In this document: positions 20,497 through 37,052 of the stretch, in pieces
Position numbering within the stretch: the first letter of the stretch is position 1
How the letters are laid out: every line of letters begins with the position of its first letter
NCBI GenBank assembly: GCA_009927495.1
Contig: RFMX01000296.1
Span: 1 to 37,092 of the forward strand
Direction of reading: 5' to 3'
Source of the DNA: Betaproteobacteria bacterium
GTDB taxonomy: Bacteria > Pseudomonadota > Gammaproteobacteria > Burkholderiales > Burkholderiaceae_C
Length of the DNA stretch: 37,092 nucleotides
Translations under genes and position numbers: made by a program
The notes under the pieces: generated by a model
What the model was told of the DNA's origin: nothing
Databases searched by the model: none
What the model saw: the letters and a program-made list of their open reading frames with translations, nothing else

Positions 20497-21981
20497 TCAG
20501 CCAGGTAAAAGAACCAGTGAGCCTGTGCTTTGACGAGATTCAAGCCTTGCGTGTGCTGTCGCTGCTTCTTTCAAGGCAAATTGCTCTGTTTGTACAGGCA
20601 GCAAAATACCGTCACGAAAGGCCTGCCAAACTCGCTCAGCCCTTTGGTTAAGCACAGCATGGGTTGCTACATAAGCAAATGCAACGGGTCGAGAAAAACT
20701 GACCGATTTCCCCACCAACCAATCGGGAGAAATAGGTTGCAGCGGACCACTTGCCTGGCCCAAACTGATCCAATGGCCACAAGGTGCAAGAGCCGCAAAA
20801 TTTTCTTCTCTTGCGGCATCCCCAAGACCGTCAATGATGACATCGGCTCCTTGTGAAATGTGGTGAACTGCGGCGCTGAATGTGTAATCTGATGTGACGA
20901 TGACATGCTGGCACCCATTGTCACGTGCAATACGTGCTTTGGCCTCAGAGCTCACGGTACCCATGACCAAAGCACCCATGTTTCGTGCCCATGCGCAAAC
21001 CAATGTCCCTACGCCACCTGCTGCTGCATGTACTAAGAGCCGGGTTCCTGCTTTGACTCGCCCAAGGTCGCGCAACAAATAATCTGCTGTGATGCCTTTG
21101 AGCAAGCTTGCTGCTGCTGTCCCGTCATCAATGCCAGCGCCTAAACGCACGGTCCAAGCCACAGGCACATTGCGAACCGAGGTGTAAGAGCCAGGGGCAG
21201 GGCCCATGTAAGCAACTCTGTCCCCTGGCAAAAGACTGGTCACATCAGGACCCACATCAATCACCTCACCGGCTGCTTCCATGCCAGGTGTTCCGGGGAG
21301 GGGAAGTAGTTCCGGAATCCAACCCTTGCGTAAATAGATGTCAAGGTAATTCACGCCTATGGCGGTTTGTCGAATCCGAACCTCTCCAACCCCAGGGGGA
21401 GGAACCTCTGAGGATTCAGCACGCAATTGAACAGCATCGCCATATTCACGCACTTTGATGGTCTGGGCGACAACGGGCGAAGCTTGAAGAACAGGCTTTG
21501 TACTGGTAGGGCGCAAATGACTTCGCCCTGCGTTGCTGCCTAATTGCAAATGACGTTTGAGGTTGGCAAACCCAGCTTCGTAGACCCCCTGAGCCACCAT
21601 ATTGCGCAGATCTGCTTCCATGCCAGGCGGGGTCGCAAAAGAAGAAGCCCAGTGCCAAAAAGTGCGTTGCCCATCGGTCACGGGTTTTAAAGTGATGGTG
21701 GCAACATAGCGTTGTAATGGAACTGTCGCCTCGATAATCGTATAAGTGCTGACGTAGTCTTTGTCGGACAGACTCAGCAGCATTTCTCTAATGTGATTGC
21801 CGTCTTGCAAAGTGAAGTTACGCACACACCCTACACGATCACTGGGTTTGCCGTCCTCAATTTCACTGTGGTCAACCACTTCATGCCATCGGTCATGGCT
21901 GTTGAAGTCGCGTAAAACAGCCCACACCCTCTCTATGGGGGCGTCGATCACTGTCGAGCGGACAACTTTTTGCAAAGCCAT
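20497..21981 (-). CDS. fusion protein: N-terminal SRPBCC domain + C-terminal quinone oxidoreductase (zinc-type ADH-like MDR)
   Basis: Residues 1-145 are homologous to the adjacent SRPBCC protein; residues ~175-494 contain GVGEVRIRQTAIGVNYLDIYLRKG, GMEAAGEVIDVG, VHAAAGGVGTLVCAWARNMGA. Confidence 0.9.
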   Translation of the reverse strand: MALQKVVRSTVIDAPIERVWAVLRDFNSHDRWHEVVDHSEIEDGKPSDRVGCVRNFTLQDGNHIREMLLSLSDKDYVSTYTIIEATVPLQRYVATITLKPVTDGQRTFWHWASSFATPPGMEADLRNMVAQGVYEAGFANLKRHLQLGSNAGRSHLRPTSTKPVLQASPVVAQTIKVREYGDAVQLRAESSEVPPPGVGEVRIRQTAIGVNYLDIYLRKGWIPELLPLPGTPGMEAAGEVIDVGPDVTSLLPGDRVAYMGPAPGSYTSVRNVPVAWTVRLGAGIDDGTAAASLLKGITADYLLRDLGRVKAGTRLLVHAAAGGVGTLVCAWARNMGALVMGTVSSEAKARIARDNGCQHVIVTSDYTFSAAVHHISQGADVIIDGLGDAAREENFAALAPCGHWISLGQASGPLQPISPDWLVGKSVSFSRPVAFAYVATHAVLNQRAERVWQAFRDGILLPVQTEQFALKEAATAHARLESRQSTGSLVLLPG

Positions 21982-24184: not shown

Positions 24185-25027
24185 TCATTGAAAACCTTTG
24201 CGTTTCAGATTCACAAATTGGCGAGTGGTATCCGTTAAAGCAATCTCTGTGGGGAGACGTTCCATGGAACTTGCCCCATAAAACCCGTGCAGTTGTGGGC
24301 ATTCATTCAAAATCCATTCAGCGTCTGCGGGTGACGAAATAGGGCCACCATGGCACAGCAGTAAGACATCAGGTTTGACTTTCAACGCAGCTTCACACCA
24401 CTGGTGAATGGGCTCTACACAGTCCTCAAGCTTCATGGCCGTGTCTGCGCCAATGCTCCCACCGGTGGTCAAGCCCATGTGGCACACAACGATATCCGCA
24501 CCAGCTTGCGCCATATCGGCAGCTTGGTCGCTGCTAAAGACGTAAGGCGTGGTCAACAAATCAAGGGCATGTGCTTGTCGAATAATGTCTACCTCTAGGC
24601 CATAACCCATCCCAGTCTCTTCCAAGTTGGCACGGAAAAGCCCATCAATCAGTCCAACGGTTGGAAAATTCTGAACACCTGAAAACCCAAGATGAATCAA
24701 TCGCTGCAAGAATTCTTCAGGCAGCATGAAGGGATCCGTGCTATTGACACCAGCCAATACGGGTGTGTGCTTCACAACTGGCAAAACTTCTTTGGCCATG
24801 TCACAGACGATGTCATTGGCATTGCCGTAAGCAAGTAAACCGGCCAATGATCCCCTGCCTGCCATGCGGTAGCGACCAGAGTTATAAATCACAATCAAAT
24901 CGATGCCGCCAGCTTCCTCGCATTTAGCAGACAAGCCTGTTCCAGCTCCACCGCCAATGATGGGCATACCTTGTGCAACTTTTTTGCGTAAGTTGGCAAG
25001 AATGGTTTGACGGGCGATACGTGGCAT
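24185..25027 (-). CDS. TIM-barrel protein, phosphoenolpyruvate-hydrolase-like (PF09370), Tm-1 C-terminal-domain homologue
   Basis: [54 protein letters not shown]...; conserved partner of UPF0261 proteins. Confidence 0.85.
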
Positions 25028-25045: not shown

Positions 25046-27205
25046 TTAGGCTGATTTCGTTTGACGTTGGTTCAGGGTGCTGATGTCAAGCCATGCATCC
25101 ACCAACGCTTGTGCAAAAGCTTCATCATTGATGTGCAGAGGAAGTTTGATCAATTTGTGCTGCGCAGTTGTTCTGAAATTGGCTTGCAAAGCTGAAAACA
25201 AAGCTTGATTGGCTGCGGGATCGAAAAAAACCTGTCCTTCTTTATCGATGGCTGACACGCCTTTTTCAGGTATCAAGAACCTTACAGGTCCACGCATCGC
25301 ATTTAGCTTATTTGCGATGAACTCACCAATTTCTCGGCATTCTTCGGGGGTTGTACGCATCAAGGTGACATTGGGGTTATGTCGATACAAATTACGCCCT
25401 TTGAAACGCTCTGGCACTGTGTCATAGGGGCCAAAGTTGGCCATGTCCAAGGCGCCGCAAGAACCGACATAGGGTAAATCGACTTGAGCGAACACATCCA
25501 TGCGTGTGGGACCTGCAGACAAAGTTGCCCCGACAATTTCATCGGCAATCTCAGTGGTTGAGACATCAATAACCCCATTGAGAAGTTGAGATGCAGCCAA
25601 TTTCTCCATAGATTGACCGCCTGTTCCAGTGGCGTGAAAAACCAAGCAATCAAAACGATCCTCTAAACGCTTGGTTACAGCTTGGACGCAGGGTGTTGTT
25701 ACACCAAACATGGTGAGTCCGACAGCAGGCTTTACGGTTTCAGACCCACGGTGCTTGTGAGTCACCATGCCAGCGAGAGCATGAGCAGCATTTGACAAAA
25801 CTTTTTCGCTGATTCGGTTGATACCTTGTACATCTGTAACCGAATACATCATGCAAATATCGCTAGGCCCCACATAGGGACGCGTATCGCCTGAAGCCAT
25901 GGTTGACACCATGACTTTGGGAACCCCAATAGGCAGCACTCGCATGGCCGCTGTGGCCAAGGAAGTGCCCCCTGAGCCACCGGCAGAAATCAATCCACCG
26001 ACATCTCGGCGAGTGCGAATAAATGACTCAAAAGCCAAAGCCATTGCTGCAACACTGCTACCTCTGTCAGAGGAAAAAACAGCCTGCTCACCTTGAGGAT
26101 GGTGTCTTGCTACTTCGCGAGGATGGACTGAAGCTGGAGAGGGCCGCCCTGTTGTGGACAGATCTACCGTTACCACTCTTAGGCCGAGCTTTTCCAAGCA
26201 TTGTCTTAAAAAGAAAAGCTCTTTGCCTTTGGTATCAAAGGTGCCAGCCACATAGGCTGCCTGACTGCTGCTTGCTGCAACAGGAAAATCAAAAACTTGT
26301 GCAGGTGAAGCTGCAACTTGGGCTGTGCCTGCAGAAACCTCTGACGCGTTGAATGCCTTGGTGAATTGCTGACTGAATGGAATATCTTCTGAACTGTAGG
26401 CACGCTGTACACGCACAACAGTAGCAGGTTCATTGATGGCAGGCTCCACAGGTGCTTCATCAAACACTTCCCCAGAAGCACGCAGACCAAGCAGACGCTC
26501 TTGCAAACCTTTGTCATGGGCCAACTCAACAGCTGGCATTTCATCTTGTATGCGCCCATTGACCATCACAGCTACACGGTCAGCGCTGGCAACAGCAACC
26601 CCAAGGTTTTGTTCAATCAGCAAAATAGCTATGCCGTCTTCCGTGGCAAGTTGACGCAGCGAGGCCTCCACTTGCTCAACAATCACAGGCGCCAAACCTT
26701 CTGTAGGCTCATCCATGATCAAAATACGTGGTCTCAAAAGCAGTGCTCGACCAATAGCCAACATTTGCTGTTCACCGCCGGAAAGCTGAGTGCCTCCGTT
26801 GTTTTTTCTTTCGGCTAATCGAGGAAACATCGCATACACGCGGTCAACATCGTTACGCTGAGGAGCAACCAAACGCAAGGTTTCATCAACGGTCAATGAA
26901 GGCCAAACACGCCGACCTTGAGGAACATAGGCCATGCCACGTCGGGTGATTTCATGGGGTGATTTGCCCAAAATTTCTTCACCCGCTAAGCGCACGCTGC
27001 CACTTGCATTCACCAACCCTGTGAGCGCATTGCAAAGTGTAGATTTGCCCATGCCATTGCGACCCACAATGCCTAAAACCCCTTGACTTAATGACAACGA
27101 GATGCCCTGTAGTACATGGGCTTGGCCGTAGTACACATGCAAATCCTCAACCACCAACAAAGGTCCTTTGAAGGTTCTAGTGGGAGCTTCACCAAACCAG
27201 GCCAT
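25046..27205 (-). CDS. fusion protein: LivF-type ABC ATPase + UPF0261/Tm-1-like ATP-binding domain
   Basis: Residues ~15-245: GRNGMGKST Walker A, LSGGEQQMLAIGRAL signature, ILIMDEP Walker B. Residues ~317-705: AAYVAGTFDTKGKELFFLRQCLEKLGLRVVTVDLST, GGLISAGGSGGTSLATAAMRVLPIGVPKVMVSTMASGD of UPF0261. Confidence 0.92.
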   Translation of the reverse strand: MAWFGEAPTRTFKGPLLVVEDLHVYYGQAHVLQGISLSLSQGVLGIVGRNGMGKSTLCNALTGLVNASGSVRLAGEEILGKSPHEITRRGMAYVPQGRRVWPSLTVDETLRLVAPQRNDVDRVYAMFPRLAERKNNGGTQLSGGEQQMLAIGRALLLRPRILIMDEPTEGLAPVIVEQVEASLRQLATEDGIAILLIEQNLGVAVASADRVAVMVNGRIQDEMPAVELAHDKGLQERLLGLRASGEVFDEAPVEPAINEPATVVRVQRAYSSEDIPFSQQFTKAFNASEVSAGTAQVAASPAQVFDFPVAASSSQAAYVAGTFDTKGKELFFLRQCLEKLGLRVVTVDLSTTGRPSPASVHPREVARHHPQGEQAVFSSDRGSSVAAMALAFESFIRTRRDVGGLISAGGSGGTSLATAAMRVLPIGVPKVMVSTMASGDTRPYVGPSDICMMYSVTDVQGINRISEKVLSNAAHALAGMVTHKHRGSETVKPAVGLTMFGVTTPCVQAVTKRLEDRFDCLVFHATGTGGQSMEKLAASQLLNGVIDVSTTEIADEIVGATLSAGPTRMDVFAQVDLPYVGSCGALDMANFGPYDTVPERFKGRNLYRHNPNVTLMRTTPEECREIGEFIANKLNAMRGPVRFLIPEKGVSAIDKEGQVFFDPAANQALFSALQANFRTTAQHKLIKLPLHINDEAFAQALVDAWLDISTLNQRQTKSA

Positions 27206-28032
27206 CAGTGTTTGCCCCCCATATAGATCGCTTGCACCTGGGCATCGTTTTCAATCTCAGATGGCGTTCCAGTTTTAATTACGGCGCCGTTATGCATCAC
27301 AGTAACTTTTTCAACCACACGCAAAGCAATTTCTAAATCGTGCTCTATCAGTACAAAGCTCATGTGTGAGGGAAGAGAAATAAGCAGTTTGACCAACTCT
27401 CTTCGCTCAGCAGGTGATAAACCCGCTGCAGGTTCATCAAACAAAATCAAGCGTGGAGCGCCTGCTAAAGCAATCGCAATTTCAAGTTGTCGCTGCTGGC
27501 CATGCGCGAGATTGCTGACCATTTCATCTGCAATATGGGTGAGGCGTCCGCGCTCTAACAACTCTTGGGTGGCTAATGTAGAGGGATGGTTTTTACTTGC
27601 CCTCCTGAAACTGAATCTTGCATTGGCCACACCTCGGACAGCAAGAAATAGGTTATCGCGCACACTAAGATCGCGGAATAAAAGTGAAGACTGGTAGGTT
27701 CGTCGCAGTCCTTTGCGGATGCGCTCAAACGGGTCCATGTAAGTGACGTCTTCACCAAAGAAACGTATACGACCCAATGTGGGTGGAAAGTCGCCGGTGA
27801 TGGCATTGAACAAGGTGGTCTTGCCCGCACCATTCGCACCCAAAATGGCACGCTTTTCACCGGCGAGAACAGATAAAGAAACATCATCCACCGCCCGCAA
27901 AGCGCCAAATGCCCGTGTCACATTTTCCAAGACCAAGGCCTCGGACGACATGAGGGGTACTTCGCTCGGCGAAGTACCTTCGGGCCGAGCCATTTCTGGC
28001 GAGCTTGAACGCAATGCGGTGATGGATGCCAT
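27205..28032 (-). CDS. LivG-type branched-chain ABC transporter ATP-binding protein
   Basis: GANGAGKTTLFNAITGDFPPTLG, LAHGQQRQLEIAIALAGAPRLILFDEPAAGLSP. Confidence 0.92.
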   Translation of the reverse strand: MASITALRSSSPEMARPEGTSPSEVPLMSSEALVLENVTRAFGALRAVDDVSLSVLAGEKRAILGANGAGKTTLFNAITGDFPPTLGRIRFFGEDVTYMDPFERIRKGLRRTYQSSLLFRDLSVRDNLFLAVRGVANARFSFRRASKNHPSTLATQELLERGRLTHIADEMVSNLAHGQQRQLEIAIALAGAPRLILFDEPAAGLSPAERRELVKLLISLPSHMSFVLIEHDLEIALRVVEKVTVMHNGAVIKTGTPSEIENDAQVQAIYMGGKH

Positions 28033-28049
28033 CTTTATCTGCCTGATGC

Positions 28050-29303
28050 TTACTTACGGCAGTCAGGAATATCCCGTGTACCTAAGCCCATTTTTTTGAA
28101 CTCTGCTTCAGGCAGACCCAAGGTTTGGGTGATATTAGGGACAGTTTTGACCACTTTGTTGAACAAGGAACCATCTGCTGCCTTGGTTACTTCGGTGATG
28201 TAAGTGGGGCCTACACCGTTGCGGTTTGCGTCAATCACCACTTCGCCAGCAGGGCCGACAAACTTGGTTTTTTGCAGGGCTTCACGGTATTTTTTTTGAC
28301 CGCCACTCAAGTCGCCTTTGACTGCATCCAGTCCATCCAAAGCGGCTTTGGTGTTAATGTAGTAAAGGTAAGCAAACAAAGAAGGGCTTGGGAAACCATC
28401 TTTGAAGTTGGCTTTGTAGTCAGCAACAAATTTTTTCCATTCGGCTGTGTCCAAAGAATCGGCCATGGGTCCTGCAGAAGCGGTACCCACCAAAGATTCG
28501 CGGCGCTTTCCTTTGTAGTTCAACACGGTCTGGTCTACGGTGATAGAGCCGCCCACCATAGGCTTGGTACCACCGGCTTGTTCGTACTGGGTTAAAAAGT
28601 TCACTGCATCTGAGCCACCTAAGACCACCAGCAATGCATCAACATCTTTGGGAATCTTGGCAATCACAGACGCATAGTCTTTGGTGCCTAATGGAACCCA
28701 AGCTTTGTCGACCACTTTGCCACCCTTGGCGCAGTAACTGGCCATGAAACCTTGAACTTGAGAGTAGGGGAAGCCATAGTCTTCGGCAATCAGGAACATT
28801 TTTTTGTATCCCTTTGACAAAGCATGGTCACCCAGCCCCACCATCCACTGTGCACCCTCTGTGTTGAAGCGGAAGAAGTTCGCTGAAGGATCGTTCAATG
28901 TCGCAGCTTGTGCACCCGATGAACCGTTGACAAAAGTGATACCAGCCTGTGTTTTGGCGTAGTTCTTAACGGCAATACCTTCGTCACCAGACAATGGGCC
29001 AATCATGATTTGGACTTTGTCTTGCTCTACCAGTTTACGAGTGGCTGCTACAGCTTTGTCAGGGTTGCCATCAGAAGAGCCACTGATGAGCTCAATTTTC
29101 ATACCGCCTGCAGTGCCACCTTTTTGTTTCAGGGCAAGCTCAGCGCCACGAATACCATCTTGTCCTGGTACGGCGAATGGACCTTCAAGAATAGAAAGCA
29201 GTCCAACTTTCAAGGTTCCTTCAGCGAAAGCAAAACCCGTAGTGGCCGCCAAAATTGCTGCGCTGATCACAGTACGTGCCAGTGTTCTTTTACTCGAATA
29301 CAT
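28050..29303 (-). CDS. ABC transporter periplasmic substrate-binding protein (LivK/amide-binding type)
   Basis: Signal peptide MYSSKRTLARTVISAAILAATTGFAFA; KVGLLSILEGPFAVPGQDGIRGAELALKQ; GAGGAGACAACAATG start context. Confidence 0.92.
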   Translation of the reverse strand: MYSSKRTLARTVISAAILAATTGFAFAEGTLKVGLLSILEGPFAVPGQDGIRGAELALKQKGGTAGGMKIELISGSSDGNPDKAVAATRKLVEQDKVQIMIGPLSGDEGIAVKNYAKTQAGITFVNGSSGAQAATLNDPSANFFRFNTEGAQWMVGLGDHALSKGYKKMFLIAEDYGFPYSQVQGFMASYCAKGGKVVDKAWVPLGTKDYASVIAKIPKDVDALLVVLGGSDAVNFLTQYEQAGGTKPMVGGSITVDQTVLNYKGKRRESLVGTASAGPMADSLDTAEWKKFVADYKANFKDGFPSPSLFAYLYYINTKAALDGLDAVKGDLSGGQKKYREALQKTKFVGPAGEVVIDANRNGVGPTYITEVTKAADGSLFNKVVKTVPNITQTLGLPEAEFKKMGLGTRDIPDCRK

Positions 29304-29405
29304 TGTTGTCTCCTCAGGTTGAAAAAAGGCCAATGGCCGGTGAAAAAACGCCCGGACCTACCGGCCATAGCGTCGAGTTACCAAACTGATTGATCAAAAC
29401 ATCAA

Positions 29406-30556
29406 TCATGAGCGGCGACTTTCAGGAGCTGACGCAGCGGATGAAATCAGCCAACGTGAGCGAAATTTGTTCCATAGACCCAGCAGTCCATCAGGCGAGA
29501 AAAATACGATCAATAAAAACACACCGCCAATCACCAGATTGAAGCGTTGCCTATCGACCAAATCGATGGCGAAGTTTTGCAGCAAAACAAAAGTGATGGC
29601 GCCAATGAATGCACCTAAGGGATGCTTCATGCCACCTAGCACAGCAATCACCAAAATATTGATAAGTGCGCCAGTGTTGATAGAACCAGGCGAGACGCGG
29701 TTGTTGTACCAAACCAGAAGAATGCCACCTACCGATGCCAGCAGTCCTGCGAACGCATGTGCAGCCAGCCGGTGAGCTGTGACATTGAATCCCAGCGAAT
29801 TCATTCGCCTTGGGTTGTCGCGGATACCTTGTAATGCCAAGCCAAAAGGCGCTCGAACCAAATACTTGATTGCCCAATATCCGCAGAGCGCACAGCCAAG
29901 TGCAAGGAAATAAAAGGCGACTGGATCGGTGAAATCAACATCACCTACGATGGGGGCGCTGATTTTGCTGAAGCCTTGAAACCCATTAAATAAACCATAG
30001 TTCTGTTGAGTCAAATAAAAAAATGCCACACCAATGGCCAAGGTAATCATGATGGTATGGATACCTTCAGTTCTGATAGACAACCAACCAATCAAGGTGG
30101 CAAACACAACAGAGATAAGCATTGCAAAAAGTACGGCCAACCACCAGGGCCAGCCCAGACTGATGGCCTGCATACTGCTGGTACCAAAAATTGCAATCAG
30201 GTAACTGCTAAGACCCGCTACAGTCATTTGCGACAGTGACACCATGCCACCATAGCCACCTAAAAAAGTCAGTGATAAAGCGATGAGACCCATGGCAAGC
30301 GACTGGCCCCAATTTGGTAGGTAAAGAAAGGAGACGCGACAGCAGGGTAAAGCAACACCATGGCCATGAATAACCAGTGACGAAGATGAACTGGCGCCCA
30401 CAAGCGTGACCACCAACCTGTGCCCTGATAGGAGGGGGTGTTGTAACGAGGTGAGCGAGAGACGGAATTTTGCACAGCAGGCGCTTGCGTGCTGACTGTC
30501 ACCCTGACGCCAGGTGACTGTGTGTTCATGGCGCGACGCCAGTGGGCTGCACTCAT
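29406..30556 (-). CDS. LivM-type permease, apparent -1 frameshift at 30307-30310
   Basis: N-terminus ORF 30269..30556 (MSAAHWRRAM...LLYPAVASPFFTYQIG) and body ORF 29406..30416 (GQSLAMGLIALSLTFLGGYGGMVSLSQ) join if a GGGG run is GGGGG; ATGA overlap with LivH stop supports the start. Confidence 0.9.
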
Positions 30557-31509
30557 GTGGCTTTTCCTAAAACACCGCGTGGCCTGAAAGCCAAGGCAAT
30601 GATCATGATGACGAAGGTGAAAACTACGCTGTAGGTGGGTGCGTATGCTTGACCAAATTGCTCAGCAAGACCAATCAGCAAAGCACCAATGGCAGCGCCT
30701 GGCACACTGCCCATGCCACCCACAATCACCACCACCAATGAAGCCAATAAATAACGTGTGTCTTCTCCAGGTGAGATAGACAAAGCAGTACCTCCAACGA
30801 CACCCGCTAAACCAGCAAGTCCAGCACCTAAAGCAAAAGTGAGCGCAAAGATACGCTGAACATTCACCCCCGATGCTGACAACATGCCACGGTCATCCAC
30901 CCCCGCACGAATCATCATGCCGATGCGAGTCCCATTGAGCAACCCCCACAGCAGCAAACCAATGACGATCGCTATGAGCAATACAACGATACGGTAGGTG
31001 GGGAATTTTTCGATGATGGGCAGACTCATCGTTCCGTAAATCCAAGCGGGTGGGTCAAAGGTATAAATTTCCCCGCCAAAGTACCAAAGCATCAAATCAG
31101 CTAAGACGATGGACAGGCCTATCGTTACCAATGTTTGCCTGAGGTCTTCACCTTGCATACGCCTGAAAACCACGATCTGAATGACCACGCCAAGCACGCC
31201 AGATGAAACAAACCCCGCCAAAACGGCTAACAACCAAGAGCCTGTGAGGTCACCCACAATCCAGCCCACATACGCGCCGACCAAAAACAAAGAGCCGTGT
31301 GCAAGGTTGACATTTCGCATCAAGCCAAAGACCAAAGTAAAGCCACTGGCCACAATGAAATAGAGCGACGCCAAAGTCAATCCGTTGAGGAATGTCTTGA
31401 GAAAAAGCACGGCGTCGTCAAACAAGCCCCAAAGCGCAAGCAACGCCAATGGAAAGACCAGCAACCACCAAAAAGCTAATCGCCCACGGCTCATGCAGCT
31501 CGCTCCCAT
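30553..31509 (-). CDS. LivH-type permease
   Basis: LNGLTLASLYFIVASGFTLVFGLMRNVNLAHGSLFLVGAYVGW; VVIVGGMGSVPGAAIGALLIGLAEQF. Confidence 0.92.
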   Translation of the reverse strand: MGASCMSRGRLAFWWLLVFPLALLALWGLFDDAVLFLKTFLNGLTLASLYFIVASGFTLVFGLMRNVNLAHGSLFLVGAYVGWIVGDLTGSWLLAVLAGFVSSGVLGVVIQIVVFRRMQGEDLRQTLVTIGLSIVLADLMLWYFGGEIYTFDPPAWIYGTMSLPIIEKFPTYRIVVLLIAIVIGLLLWGLLNGTRIGMMIRAGVDDRGMLSASGVNVQRIFALTFALGAGLAGLAGVVGGTALSISPGEDTRYLLASLVVVIVGGMGSVPGAAIGALLIGLAEQFGQAYAPTYSVVFTFVIMIIALAFRPRGVLGKAT

Positions 31510-32807
31510 GCACGTTGACGGCTGGTGGGTGGGTGTTTGGCAAACACACCGTCCTTCATGACAGCCAACATACGCGATGGCTCTCGCAAAATTGCTAAGT
31601 TGGTCAGCGGGTCGCCATCAACCAATAACAGATCAGCCAAATAACCTTCTTTGATCAAACCCAGTTCATTGGGCTTCATCATGATTTGGCCGCCATACAA
31701 CGTACATGAGCGGATCGCTTCCATGGGCGTGAAACCAAGGTAGCGCACAAAGAACTCTAGGTCACGTGCATTTTGACCGTGGGGCGTGAATGCAAAACCA
31801 TAGTCACCGCCTGGCATGACACGAACGCCACGTTTATGCATGGCAGACAAAGATTTCAATGCAACTTCCCATTCGATGCCATACCCCATGCTCTCCGCTT
31901 TGGCTCGGGTGACGCCCCATTCAGAGGCTTCATTGAGCAATGCGTGAATAATGCCAATGCCTGGCACCACAAACACGCGGTCTTTGGCGGCTTCGAGCAT
32001 GTCTAGCGTTTTTTCATCACAAAAGCTAGCGTGGTAAATGATGTCAATGCCATGGCGCAAGGCTTGTTGAACTGAAGGGCCAGAGCGTGCATGCGCGGCA
32101 GCACGTTTTCCTCTCATGCGCACTTCTTCCATCGCTGCTCCCACTTCAGCATCCGTCATCCAATGGGTTTCGGCAGGGGAGTCGGGGGTGAAGTTGTCAC
32201 CGGATAAATTCAGTTTGATGGAGTCGACCCCATACTTCAAAAACATGCGAACACATTTGCGCATGTCCTCTGCACCGCTGACATTGGCACCAAAGCTGAA
32301 TTCGGGAAAGGGCAGGTGAGGCAGGGTTTCGTCGCCCAAAGCGCCAAGCACGGTGATTTCTTGGCTTGCCGCTAAATAGCGAGGACCTGGAATTTGCCCG
32401 CTGTTGATAGCGTTGCGAATGACCACATCCAAACGTGGCTTGGCGCAGGCGGCACCGACGCAAGAGGTCCAACCCGCTTCTAAATAGATTTTGGCAACCT
32501 TGGCACTCCAAAGCACATGCTCTTCCAAGGGCATGGTTTGAATGCCAGCCAAATTGGCAGCGTTGTTCCAAGAGAAATGGGTATGAGCTTCGCACATCCC
32601 AGGCATGAGTGTCGCGCCTGCCGCATCGACTTGCATAGCGTCTCCTGCTGACATGGGCGCCGCCGATTTGCTAATGTGCTTGATGCGTTTTCCCTCCACC
32701 AACACACTGCCTGGATAAGGCGCGGCACCCGATCCATCAAGAATGCGAACATTGGTAAATAGAGTGGCTGTCATGGCTGTCTCCTCTTTAGAGCTTATGC
32801 GGCCCAA
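31491..32807 (-). CDS. amidohydrolase (imidazolonepropionase-like metal-dependent hydrolase)
   Basis: MPGMCEAHTHFSWNN (HxH), SIKLNLSG (Lys), AAHARS and IIYHASF (His), MPGGDYGF (Asp): complete amidohydrolase ligand set. Confidence 0.92.
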   Translation of the reverse strand: MGRISSKEETAMTATLFTNVRILDGSGAAPYPGSVLVEGKRIKHISKSAAPMSAGDAMQVDAAGATLMPGMCEAHTHFSWNNAANLAGIQTMPLEEHVLWSAKVAKIYLEAGWTSCVGAACAKPRLDVVIRNAINSGQIPGPRYLAASQEITVLGALGDETLPHLPFPEFSFGANVSGAEDMRKCVRMFLKYGVDSIKLNLSGDNFTPDSPAETHWMTDAEVGAAMEEVRMRGKRAAAHARSGPSVQQALRHGIDIIYHASFCDEKTLDMLEAAKDRVFVVPGIGIIHALLNEASEWGVTRAKAESMGYGIEWEVALKSLSAMHKRGVRVMPGGDYGFAFTPHGQNARDLEFFVRYLGFTPMEAIRSCTLYGGQIMMKPNELGLIKEGYLADLLLVDGDPLTNLAILREPSRMLAVMKDGVFAKHPPTSRQRAWERAA

Positions 32808-34108
32808 CGGGTGGGCGGTGACTGACGAGTAGGGGCTCCCCGGCTATTGATTGATGGTGGTTCGCGATGGAATTTGCCATCTTTCATGACGGCAAGAATG
32901 CGCGACTTGTCTTGCAGCACAGTGATGTCAACCATCGGATCACCATCCACCAACAAAATATCAGCCAAATACCCTTCTCGAAGCTGTCCTAAGGGCGCAG
33001 CACTGCGCATCATGGGTGCTCCCCAAGCAGTCGCACTGAGCAAGGCTTCAAGGTTGGACATGCCTATGTGCTTGGTGAAATATTCGAGGTCTTTTGCGTT
33101 AGTACCGTGCGGTGTCCATGCAAAACCATAGTCACCCCCAGGCATGATGCGCACGCCGCGTTTGTGCAACGCACGCATGGATTCAATGGCTGCATCAAGC
33201 TCTTTGTAGTAACCCATTTTTTGAACAACATCAGGCGTTAGGCCATATTCTTTGGCGTTGTGGCAGGTGTTGATCAACCATGCCAGCCCAGGTGCAATGA
33301 AATGCGCGTTGCGATGCTGATCGAGCAAATCCAGTGCTTCGTTGTCTAAAAAACTAGCGTGGTAAATGACATTGATACCTTGCTTGACGCATTGTTTAAC
33401 AGACCAAGTTGAACGTGCGTGGGCCGCAACCCACTTACCCCAACTTTTGGCTTCTTGTACACAGGTGGTGATTTCTTCTTCAGTGAATTGGCTTTGCTCA
33501 CTGGACATGCCAGTGATGGATTCACCCGATAGATTGATTTTTAAAGTGTCAACGCCGTATTTGCAGAACATGCGAACACAGCGACGCATTTCATCGTTGC
33601 CGCTCACGACTGCGCCAAATGAAAACTCTTGTTGCGGTAGGTGTGGTTGGGTGCTGTCTCCTAAGCCACCTGGAACGGTGATTTCCTGGCTGGGTGCTGT
33701 GTAGCGTGGACCAATGATGGTGCCGTCGTTGATGGCATTGCGAATCACAATATCCAGTCTTGGCTTGGCCGCTGCTGCGCCGACGCAAGAAGTCCAACCC
33801 ATGTCGAGGTAAAGCTTGGCCACTTCTGCACACCACAAAATATGTTCCTCAGGTGGCATGCGTTGTATGGCGTCTAGGCTTGGCTGGTTATTCCAAGAAA
33901 AATGTGTATGGGCTTCAACCATCCCTGGCATCAAAAAGCACCCAGCACCATCTATGACAGTTTGACCTGCTAAAGGCATGTTCCGCATACCTTGATGCGT
34001 TCGGGTGACCCGAATAATTTTGTTGCCTTCAACCAGCACTTCGCCGGGGTAAGGCATATCCCCTGTTGCATCAAAAACATTAACATTGGTAAACAGCACT
34101 TGGCTCAT
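32795..34108 (-). CDS. amidohydrolase, paralogue of adjacent 31491..32807
   Basis: Same motif set (MPGMVEAHTHFSWNN, TLKINLSGES, AAHARS, VIYHASF, MPGGDYGFAW) with colinear similarity over full length. Confidence 0.92.
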   Translation of the reverse strand: MSQVLFTNVNVFDATGDMPYPGEVLVEGNKIIRVTRTHQGMRNMPLAGQTVIDGAGCFLMPGMVEAHTHFSWNNQPSLDAIQRMPPEEHILWCAEVAKLYLDMGWTSCVGAAAAKPRLDIVIRNAINDGTIIGPRYTAPSQEITVPGGLGDSTQPHLPQQEFSFGAVVSGNDEMRRCVRMFCKYGVDTLKINLSGESITGMSSEQSQFTEEEITTCVQEAKSWGKWVAAHARSTWSVKQCVKQGINVIYHASFLDNEALDLLDQHRNAHFIAPGLAWLINTCHNAKEYGLTPDVVQKMGYYKELDAAIESMRALHKRGVRIMPGGDYGFAWTPHGTNAKDLEYFTKHIGMSNLEALLSATAWGAPMMRSAAPLGQLREGYLADILLVDGDPMVDITVLQDKSRILAVMKDGKFHREPPSINSRGAPTRQSPPTRWAA

Positions 34109-34118
34109 GTCTCTTCCT

Positions 34119-34904
34119 TCAAGCGTGTCGTTTTAAAAATGCACGTGCTTCACGGGCGCATTCATGGGGTTTCTCAATGGGAGTCCAATGGCCACAACGA
34201 GTCAGAACTACCGATTTGGCAGATCCCATGCGACGTGCCAAGGCACGAACAGCTTCTGGTGGCGAGACTTTGTCTTCCTCACCCGTGACCAGCAACACCG
34301 GCGAAGCGATGCGTTCAACATCTGCACTGCGTGCTTGTGACAATACGTCGCAAGTGGCTGCATATCCAAGCGGTGACTGTCGCATCAGACTTTCACGGAC
34401 ATAGGCATACGCACTGGGGTTGTTTCTTTTCGTGTGCTCAGAAACTGCGGTAGTTAACAAAGACTCTGTCACTTCTTGTAGACCTTGCATACCTGTATTT
34501 CGAATTTTTTCAGCCCGGTTGCGTATGTTTTCGCGAGCAGCCTCAGGGGGCTCTGCCAAAGGACCAAACAACACCATGCTCTTAACCAGTGAAGGCTCTG
34601 CAACAGCTAAGTGCTGAAGCACAATGGTTCCCATGGAATGTCCTAGCCACTGTGCATCAGTAATACCCAACCTTTTGCAGATGGTTTGCAGGCACTGCAC
34701 CAACAGAGTCATGCTCAACTCTTCTGTGGGTAGCTTTGAGCGACCACTGCCCGGCAGATCAATGCGTATCAATCGGTGAGCGTCAAGACTGGGGTGCATG
34801 GCAGACCATGTGTTGGAGCTTCCACCCAAACCATGCACGCACACCACCGGCGAACCCGTGCCGCTTTCTTCCACAGCTACATGGTCCATCAGGTAAAAAC
34901 TCAT
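34119..34904 (-). CDS. alpha/beta hydrolase
   Basis: VVCVHGLGGSSNTW, LGHSMGT nucleophile elbow, C-terminal CGHWTPIEKP. Start placed at MSFYLMDHVAVEE; ORF extends to 35030. Confidence 0.85.
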   Translation of the reverse strand: MSFYLMDHVAVEESGTGSPVVCVHGLGGSSNTWSAMHPSLDAHRLIRIDLPGSGRSKLPTEELSMTLLVQCLQTICKRLGITDAQWLGHSMGTIVLQHLAVAEPSLVKSMVLFGPLAEPPEAARENIRNRAEKIRNTGMQGLQEVTESLLTTAVSEHTKRNNPSAYAYVRESLMRQSPLGYAATCDVLSQARSADVERIASPVLLVTGEEDKVSPPEAVRALARRMGSAKSVVLTRCGHWTPIEKPHECAREARAFLKRHA

Positions 34905-34997
34905 CCATTTACCTGCAGGAAGGCGAGAAATTTTTTCAACATTTTGCAGACTCCAGACGCCAAACTTTGAGGATATGCCTATAAACTGTTGCAAATC

Positions 34998-35019
34998 AAA
35001 TGAGACGCCCGTCTCATTT
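34998..35019. promoter_or_regulatory. perfect 10-2-10 palindrome, candidate TetR operator
   Basis: AAATGAGACG-CC-CGTCTCATTT located between the divergent hydrolase and TetR-family genes. Confidence 0.6.
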
Positions 35020-35093
35020 ATTCGGCTCATCCTAAAGCTTGACGGTCTTATGTGAAAGTGATTGCAACGACTTTTTCATCCTGATTTACCCTG

Positions 35094-35789
35094 ATGGCAA
35101 GAAAAATCCCACCCCCAACTCCGGATAAACCACTAGCCCCATCGGGGGTCAAGCAATCTACCTTTAATCAGCTACTGGATATTGCTCGACAGAAGATTGA
35201 ATTAACTGGAACTGCGCCCTCGGTCTCCGAGGTTGCATTGTTTGCCGGCGTTTCTAGAGCAACGGCTTACCGTTGTTTCCCTAGTAGAGCAGCGATGCTG
35301 ACGGCGGTGGTAGGGGTTTCATTGGGACCTATGCGTACTTTTGCTTCAGATCATTTAGATGGCATAGACAGAGTGCTGGATTTGTTTAAGCGCAGTCTGC
35401 CGCGGTTAACTAAAAATGAAACGTCATTTCGAACCGCTGTTCAACTTTCGTTAGAACAGCGTGCCTTGGCCTTAGCGGGTCAATTGAAAGAACCTTCATT
35501 CAGACGCGGCTACAGAATTCAAATATTGGCGCATGCGATGGAGCCTTTCAAGACCCAACTGCCACAGGATATTTATTTGCAATTGCACAAAGCTTTGTCT
35601 GTTGTCTATGGCATTGAGTCCTATATTGTTCTGAAAGATATATGGGGAGAAACGAGCAAGCAGGTAGAAACAACAGTGCTGTGGATGGCAAAAGCATTGG
35701 TGGAAGCGGCGCAAATTGAAGCCTTTGCCCGCATAAACTCACAGCCAGGCAAAGTTAAGCGTACGCAATCTCTGAAAGGAAAAACATGA
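35094..35789 (+). CDS. TetR family transcriptional regulator
   Basis: N-terminal HTH: ...APSVSEVALFAGVSRATAYRCFPSRAAMLTAVV; all-helical C-terminal domain. Confidence 0.85.
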   Translation: MARKIPPPTPDKPLAPSGVKQSTFNQLLDIARQKIELTGTAPSVSEVALFAGVSRATAYRCFPSRAAMLTAVVGVSLGPMRTFASDHLDGIDRVLDLFKRSLPRLTKNETSFRTAVQLSLEQRALALAGQLKEPSFRRGYRIQILAHAMEPFKTQLPQDIYLQLHKALSVVYGIESYIVLKDIWGETSKQVETTVLWMAKALVEAAQIEAFARINSQPGKVKRTQSLKGKT

Positions 35790-36664
35790 AGTTAGCCACA
35801 TTTGTTTACAAAGGTAGCCGACGTGTTGGTCTATTAAGTGATGATGGTTTAAGTGTCCAAACACTTGATTTAAACAACCATGAAAATGAGCAAGGTATTC
35901 TGGCATTGGTTGATCGAAAAGCCAGCGGTAAACCCTTTCCTGGAATCAGTTCTGATTCAATAGCTTTGAGCGATGTGAGGCTAGAGGCGCCAATTCCACG
36001 CCCTATGCGAAATATTTTTTGTGTTGGAAGAAACTACCATGCCCATGCAAAAGAGCTTTCAACAACCGTTTTCAAAGATAACAATACCGACCCCAATGCA
36101 TGGCCTATCGTTTTCACCAAAGTTCCAGAATGTGTCACAGGACCTTATGACGATGTGTATTTGCCTTTGAAGGTTTCCCAGCAAATTGATTACGAAGCTG
36201 AATTGCTGGTGGTCATTGGTATGCAGGGGAAAAATATTTCCAAGGCTGACGCTATGTCGTATGTGTATGGCTTTACCGTGGTGAATGATGTGACTGCACG
36301 AGATGTGCAAATGCGGCACCAGCAATGGGACCTGGGTAAATCGTTTGACACTTTTTGCCCCATGGGCCCTTGGATTGTCACCGCTGATGCATTTGATGGT
36401 TTGAATGCACATGTGAAATGCTGGGTGAATGGTGAACTGCGGCAAGATGGAAATGCGGCAAATATGATTTTTGATATACCCACATTGATTGAAACGTGTT
36501 CTCGTGGAATTACTTTGTACCCTGGCGACTTGATTGCCACTGGAACGCCAGCAGGTGTGGGAATGGGTTTAAATCCTCCTCAATATTTAAAGCATGGCGA
36601 CAAAGTTCGCATTGAAATTGCGCAACTCGGCGCAATTGAAAACACATTCATTGCTTCAACCTGA
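35786..36664 (+). CDS. fumarylacetoacetate hydrolase family protein
   Basis: IFCVGRNYHAHAKEL, QIDYEAELLVVIG, VVNDVTARDVQ, GDLIATGTPAGVGMG. Confidence 0.95.
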   Translation: MKLATFVYKGSRRVGLLSDDGLSVQTLDLNNHENEQGILALVDRKASGKPFPGISSDSIALSDVRLEAPIPRPMRNIFCVGRNYHAHAKELSTTVFKDNNTDPNAWPIVFTKVPECVTGPYDDVYLPLKVSQQIDYEAELLVVIGMQGKNISKADAMSYVYGFTVVNDVTARDVQMRHQQWDLGKSFDTFCPMGPWIVTADAFDGLNAHVKCWVNGELRQDGNAANMIFDIPTLIETCSRGITLYPGDLIATGTPAGVGMGLNPPQYLKHGDKVRIEIAQLGAIENTFIAST

Positions 36665-36677
36665 GGAGTTCATTGAC

Positions 36678-37052
36678 ATGATTCTTGGCATGAACCACTT
36701 CACTGCTATCGCCAAAGATCCAGTAGCTACTTTGGACTTTTATGAGCGCATTATTGGTTTGAAAGTTGGACCACGCCCAGATTTGGGTTTTCCTGGTGCT
36801 TGGCTTTATGCTGGAGACACAGCTGTGCTTCATTTGTACTTTGAGCGTCCTGTTCCCAACCCGCCTGCTGGCGTTATTGACCACATGGCTTTCACTGCAA
36901 AAGATATAAAGGCCGTTAAATCGGTCTTCGATTTATCAGGCTATCCCTATAAATTACAGCACCGACCCAATGGGCCATGGCAGATTTTTTGCGAAGACCC
37001 CAGTGGCGCCAAGGTAGAGCTCAATTTCAGCCCACTTGAAAGTTTGGATTAA
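36678..37052 (+). CDS. VOC family (glyoxalase/extradiol dioxygenase-like) protein
   Basis: MNHFTAIAKDPVATLDFYERIIGLKVG...VIDHMAFTAKDI...SGAKVELNF; start at ATG 36678 rather than 36594, which overlaps the FAH gene. Confidence 0.88.
   Translation: MILGMNHFTAIAKDPVATLDFYERIIGLKVGPRPDLGFPGAWLYAGDTAVLHLYFERPVPNPPAGVIDHMAFTAKDIKAVKSVFDLSGYPYKLQHRPNGPWQIFCEDPSGAKVELNFSPLESLD

Follow-up and report, generated by a model that had tools for sequence, protein, structure and literature searches.

A conserved palindrome between a TetR-family gene and a divergent operon is predicted to be the operator of the regulator

Introduction

In the 37,092-nucleotide stretch of betaproteobacterial DNA analysed here (contig RFMX01000296.1; hereafter the window), a gene for a TetR-family regulator points away from an operon of putative catabolic genes, and a palindrome lies in the short region between them. 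Is this palindrome the site through which the regulator acts, and on which of the two operons? When a TetR-type regulator gene and a divergent neighbour lie less than 200 bp apart, the regulator is usually a repressor of that neighbour, and in the archetype, tetA-tetR, two 15-bp palindromic operators (tetO) lie between the divergent genes (PMC3511530). The original prediction for this locus took the palindrome for a TetR operator controlling both divergent operons.

Results

The sequence AAATGAGACG-CC-CGTCTCATTT at 34998-35019, a predicted operator with no strand of its own, was found to be the perfect 22-nt palindrome that had been claimed, at exactly that position. Its arms (34998-35007 and 35010-35019) are complementary at 10/10 positions and are separated by the 2-nt spacer CC. 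Within it lies the conserved core TGAGACNNNNGTCTCA (35001-35016), with the pattern TGAGAC-N4-GTCTCA, that is, two half-sites around four central nucleotides. The placement between two divergent starts was confirmed as well, with the ATG of an alpha/beta hydrolase at 34904, the ATG of the TetR gene at 35094 and 189 bp between them. Allowing up to three mismatches, we found a single occurrence of the full palindrome pattern in the window and none in 100 dinucleotide shuffles. Perfect palindromes of such size numbered about 0.2 per mononucleotide-shuffled 37-kb window, compared with two in the real one. Since such palindromes are uncommon yet possible by chance, the size alone is suggestive, and we regard conservation as the decisive evidence.

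The copy at 34998-35019 was the sole perfect TGAGACNNNNGTCTCA in its own genome (2.08 Mb, 83% complete), and a search of this assembly for a wider regulon found no second perfect core site. The best copy with one mismatch (L030) falls where an unrelated ORF begins and seems to be a chance match.

Using the TetR protein as query, we recovered orthologues from within the genus and the family. The named genomes that were scanned contributed 80 loci, which belong to Comamonadaceae and other Burkholderiales, Reyranella, rhizobia and Rokubacteria. The core was scored out of 12, taking the best site within 300 nt upstream of the TetR match. It was perfect in 49 loci and scored 11 in 17, 10 in 13 and 9 in a single one. 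The check that had been proposed, a search for this palindrome ahead of orthologous regulator genes, thus returned a site of at least 9/12 in 80/80 named loci and of at least 10/12 in 79/80. The remaining 1.14 Mb of these loci held two sites at 10 and none at 11 or higher. Further orthologues outside the 80 that have a complete upstream region also carry a core of at least 9/12, and the core stands upstream of TetR orthologues with just 38-53% identity. Around distant TetR genes (12 loci), the core scored no better than 8-10 anywhere in the locus. The putative operator is therefore kept in all relatives with checkable upstream DNA, in Burkholderiales, rhizobia and others.

Many relatives carry a second half-site, which we counted at 5/6 letters or better. 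In the rhizobial loci (L099-L118) GTCTCA occurs exactly 19 bp to the right of the main operator in 16/16 loci, and in the Burkholderiales group (L039-L095) TGAGAC occurs 19 bp to its left in 27% of 56. This arrangement, absent from the window and its lineage, suggests that two, perhaps cooperating, dimers bind in those relatives. One member of the group, L039 (CALPPP020000051.1), is a MAG contig titled Rickettsia typhi; its TetR is 90% identical to that of the window and it has the same Comamonadaceae-type cluster, and the label looks wrong.

The position of the palindrome relative to transcription was assessed by promoter prediction. A predicted sigma-70 promoter of the divergent operon lies on the minus strand at 35029-35056, with the -35 element TTCACA at 35056-35051, a 16-nt spacer and the -10 element TAGGAT at 35034-35029; the transcript would start near 35022. 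TTCACA-N16-TAGGAT was the only promoter-like site in 34850-35200. Relatives have an equivalent promoter at the corresponding place (mean score 7.3/12, compared with 3.1 in shuffles), of the type TTGTGN-N18-TATGAT, in which the -10 element and the operator core are usually 15 nt apart. This promoter is conserved in the Burkholderiales relatives and was not seen at that place in rhizobia. The operator is thus predicted to begin a few bases past the expected divergent start site, where a protein on the DNA would block the polymerase. The TetR could possibly act as an activator; the predicted site position downstream of the start speaks against such a role. Repression of the divergent operon also fits the spacing of the two genes, since 189 bp between the ATGs is within the 200-bp rule for divergent repressors (PMC3511530).

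On the other side of the operator, a possible tetR promoter, weakly predicted, reads ACGCCA-N17-TATAAA on the plus strand (34957-34985), with an expected start near 34992. Its -35 element is TTGCCA in L003, L004 and L006. TATAAA (34980-34985), just left of the operator, may be the -10 element of tetR and is kept in five members of the genus (L001-L004 and L006). In the comparison across the family, the predicted tetR promoter was not conserved outside the genus, which makes autoregulation the weakest step. If this promoter is real, two promoters would face each other across the operator. Of the control over both operons that had been claimed, the part concerning the divergent operon is supported by the family-conserved promoter, while autoregulation is less certain, with position and the genus-level TATAAA in its favour.

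The regulator itself is encoded at 35094-35789 on the plus strand and has 231 amino acids. Pfam TetR_N matched with an E-value of 7.9e-5 and 22.8 bits, just under the curated cut-off of 24, and a profile search of the PDB matched TetR-type regulators over the N-terminal helix-turn-helix (best E 8.8e-7). The structure model was confident and all-helical (pLDDT 88.7). Its top fold matches in the PDB were TetR-type repressors aligned over about 190 residues with target TM-scores mostly of 0.6-0.7; the E-values of these matches were weak, around 1e-3 (best 1.4e-3), and KstR came first at about 15% identity. The protein thus fits the TetR family, with a helix-turn-helix that is marginal by the Pfam cut-off and a modelled all-helical fold with a C-terminal ligand/dimer domain. 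The recognition helix SRATAYR (around residues 54-60) was identical in 32/32 aligned proteins, in keeping with the unchanging half-site.

Immediately ahead of the tetR start (35077-35096), the window and L002-L010 share an almost unchanged stretch, CCTGATTTACCCTGATG, in which no ribosome site is obvious. In other relatives the tetR start is preceded by GGA(G) and then ACCC. We had considered the stretch as a further regulatory site and dropped this after the comparison with relatives, which suggests that it is the translation-initiation region of tetR.

Could the palindrome belong to another regulator? All that ties the TetR gene to the site is that they are neighbours and are inherited together, which leaves room for this reading. 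However, this TetR clade is accompanied by the site in Burkholderiales, rhizobia and Rokubacteria alike, and the recognition helix is invariant. Moreover, a TetR orthologue was present in 16 of 200 related genomes. Ten of these 16 have exactly one perfect core copy, at tetR every time, five have a degenerate copy at the corresponding place by tetR, and in one the tetR gene is cut off at the contig start. Among the 184 relatives that have no orthologue, a perfect core was found in 10, about the chance level given by a reversed control (7/200). We therefore consider another regulator very unlikely.

As RNA, the palindrome would form a strong stem in each of the predicted leaders, and it might function as a hairpin in either transcript or in both, be it as leader structure, attenuator or terminator. 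However, no intrinsic terminator, with a G+C-rich stem and a T-run, was found at 34850-35200, an Rfam search gave no match for the palindrome region, and the folding energy of both predicted leaders was about that of shuffles (z -1.5 and -0.1). The changes in the arms across relatives broke 27 pairs, gave 15 of the G-T type and compensated just two, so what is conserved is the sequence and not the pairing. The four central nucleotides of the core vary among relatives (TTGC, GCGC, GGGC and others) and the half-sites are nearly unchanged. We dropped the hairpin and terminator explanation as highly improbable. With a variable centre and with changes in one arm that the other rarely follows, the pattern fits a DNA site that is read by a protein.

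The palindrome could finally be a chance feature of coding sequence if the hydrolase started at 35030, for which the open frame in the window and in L003 is the one argument; we give this practically no credence and exclude it on the in-frame stops of close relatives, three in L002 (TetR 90% identical) and two in L004 (79%). L002 also differs from the window by 1 nt in the length of the N-terminal extension, a good ribosome site, AAGGAG, precedes the MSFY start in L004, and the ATG at 35030 falls inside the predicted -10 element of the divergent promoter. Since the upstream frame holds stops in L002 and L004 and this ATG lies within the -10 element, the comparison supports a non-coding extension and a start at ATG 34904 (MSFYLMDH). 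This agrees with the earlier view that the conserved fold begins at MSFYLMDH and that the palindrome is probably non-coding.

The hydrolase (Abhydrolase_1, 34119-34904, minus strand) is the first gene of the divergent operon. It is followed on the same strand by two paralogous amidohydrolases (Amidohydro_1, 32795-34108 and 31491-32807, together 31491-34108), each found left of tetR in 53/80 loci. Next comes a branched-chain-type ABC transporter (25046-31509, minus strand) with two permeases, a binding protein, an ATPase and a second ATPase fused to UPF0261, in a gene order that is conserved in relatives. The fusion is a single 719-aa ORF (25046-27205) in which the ABC_tran ATPase is joined to the whole of a UPF0261 (Tm-1-like) protein; rhizobia have the Tm-1-like gene as a separate one. 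A phosphoenolpyruvate (PEP) hydrolase-like TIM-barrel protein (PF09370, E 4.5e-128) is encoded at 24185-25027, again on the minus strand. Farther leftward are genes for a flotillin-like protein and for a 494-aa fusion (20497-21981) of a polyketide-cyclase/SRPBCC domain to a zinc-type alcohol dehydrogenase/quinone reductase. The catabolic genes of the window are also divergent from tetR in relatives and in an annotated Variovorax plasmid, and in rhizobia the divergent neighbours of tetR are the Tm-1-like and PEP-hydrolase-like genes. These contents suggest that the divergent operon serves the uptake and breakdown of an organic compound.

On the plus strand, a gene of the fumarylacetoacetate hydrolase (FAH) family (35786-36664) probably belongs to the tetR operon, because its ATG overlaps the tetR stop. 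A glyoxalase/VOC-family gene (36594-37052) is next in this operon. The FAH gene has switched sides: in 48 relatives it stands in the divergent operon left of tetR, and in the closest relatives of the window it is downstream of tetR, still beside the same operator.

Discussion

We consider it highly likely that the adjacent TetR uses the palindrome as its main operator, for the ligand-released repression of the divergent catabolic operon. A dimer of the regulator would read the two TGAGAC half-sites and, bound just past the divergent start site, would block RNA polymerase and keep the catabolic operon off. The bound TetR probably also keeps its own operon off; we hold this autoregulation to be likely, and in this genus the promoter of the tetR operon would face the operator from the other side. 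A small-molecule ligand, presumably the transported substrate or a pathway intermediate, would release the repressor. What the analysis shows is a conserved non-coding site in this position, a conserved promoter-like element, a TetR-like fold and a linked operon; binding, repression, autoregulation and the ligand are what we infer.

The arrangement resembles TetR/tetO in that the regulator gene is divergent from its target, a palindromic operator lies in a short intergenic region and control in both directions is expected. In contrast to TetR/tetO, the window has one operator and not two, and the predicted target is a catabolic and uptake operon rather than an efflux pump. A TetR-type protein that represses a degradation operon, as predicted here, is also known from mycobacterial KstR and BkaR; for bkaR, the target described is a branched-chain keto-acid operon close to it (PMC3920632). 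KstR was the best fold match, but identity over that match is about 15%, and the enzymes here are amidohydrolases, UPF0261 and PEP-hydrolase-like proteins.

In E. coli, the bioA/bioBFCD and argE/argCBH operons have face-to-face promoters that share one operator. The locus would have the same central operator between facing promoters if the predicted tetR promoter is real, although the repressors belong to other families and the second promoter is weakly supported here.

The switch appears to be of an ordinary kind, while this particular switch and its target pathway appear uncharacterised. A search of the open-licence literature gave no paper that deals with this operator or with a TetR linked to Tm-1-like genes. 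UPF0261 is described as an uncharacterised domain, which forms the plant virus-resistance protein Tm-1 jointly with a TIM-barrel domain (PMC5028733).

The analysis corrects the start of the hydrolase gene. It also gives this uncharacterised TetR clade a conserved candidate binding motif and defines the operon most likely under the control of the clade. Identifying what induces release of the repressor would lead directly to the pathway substrate. A wider proposal, towards and against which we lean equally, is that the clade is the dedicated regulator of an undescribed degradation pathway with UPF0261/Tm-1-like and PEP-hydrolase-like proteins, common to Burkholderiales and rhizobia, with dimers that cooperate at the 19-bp spacing in many relatives. 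If this is true, the ligand of the TetR clade would reveal the pathway substrate.
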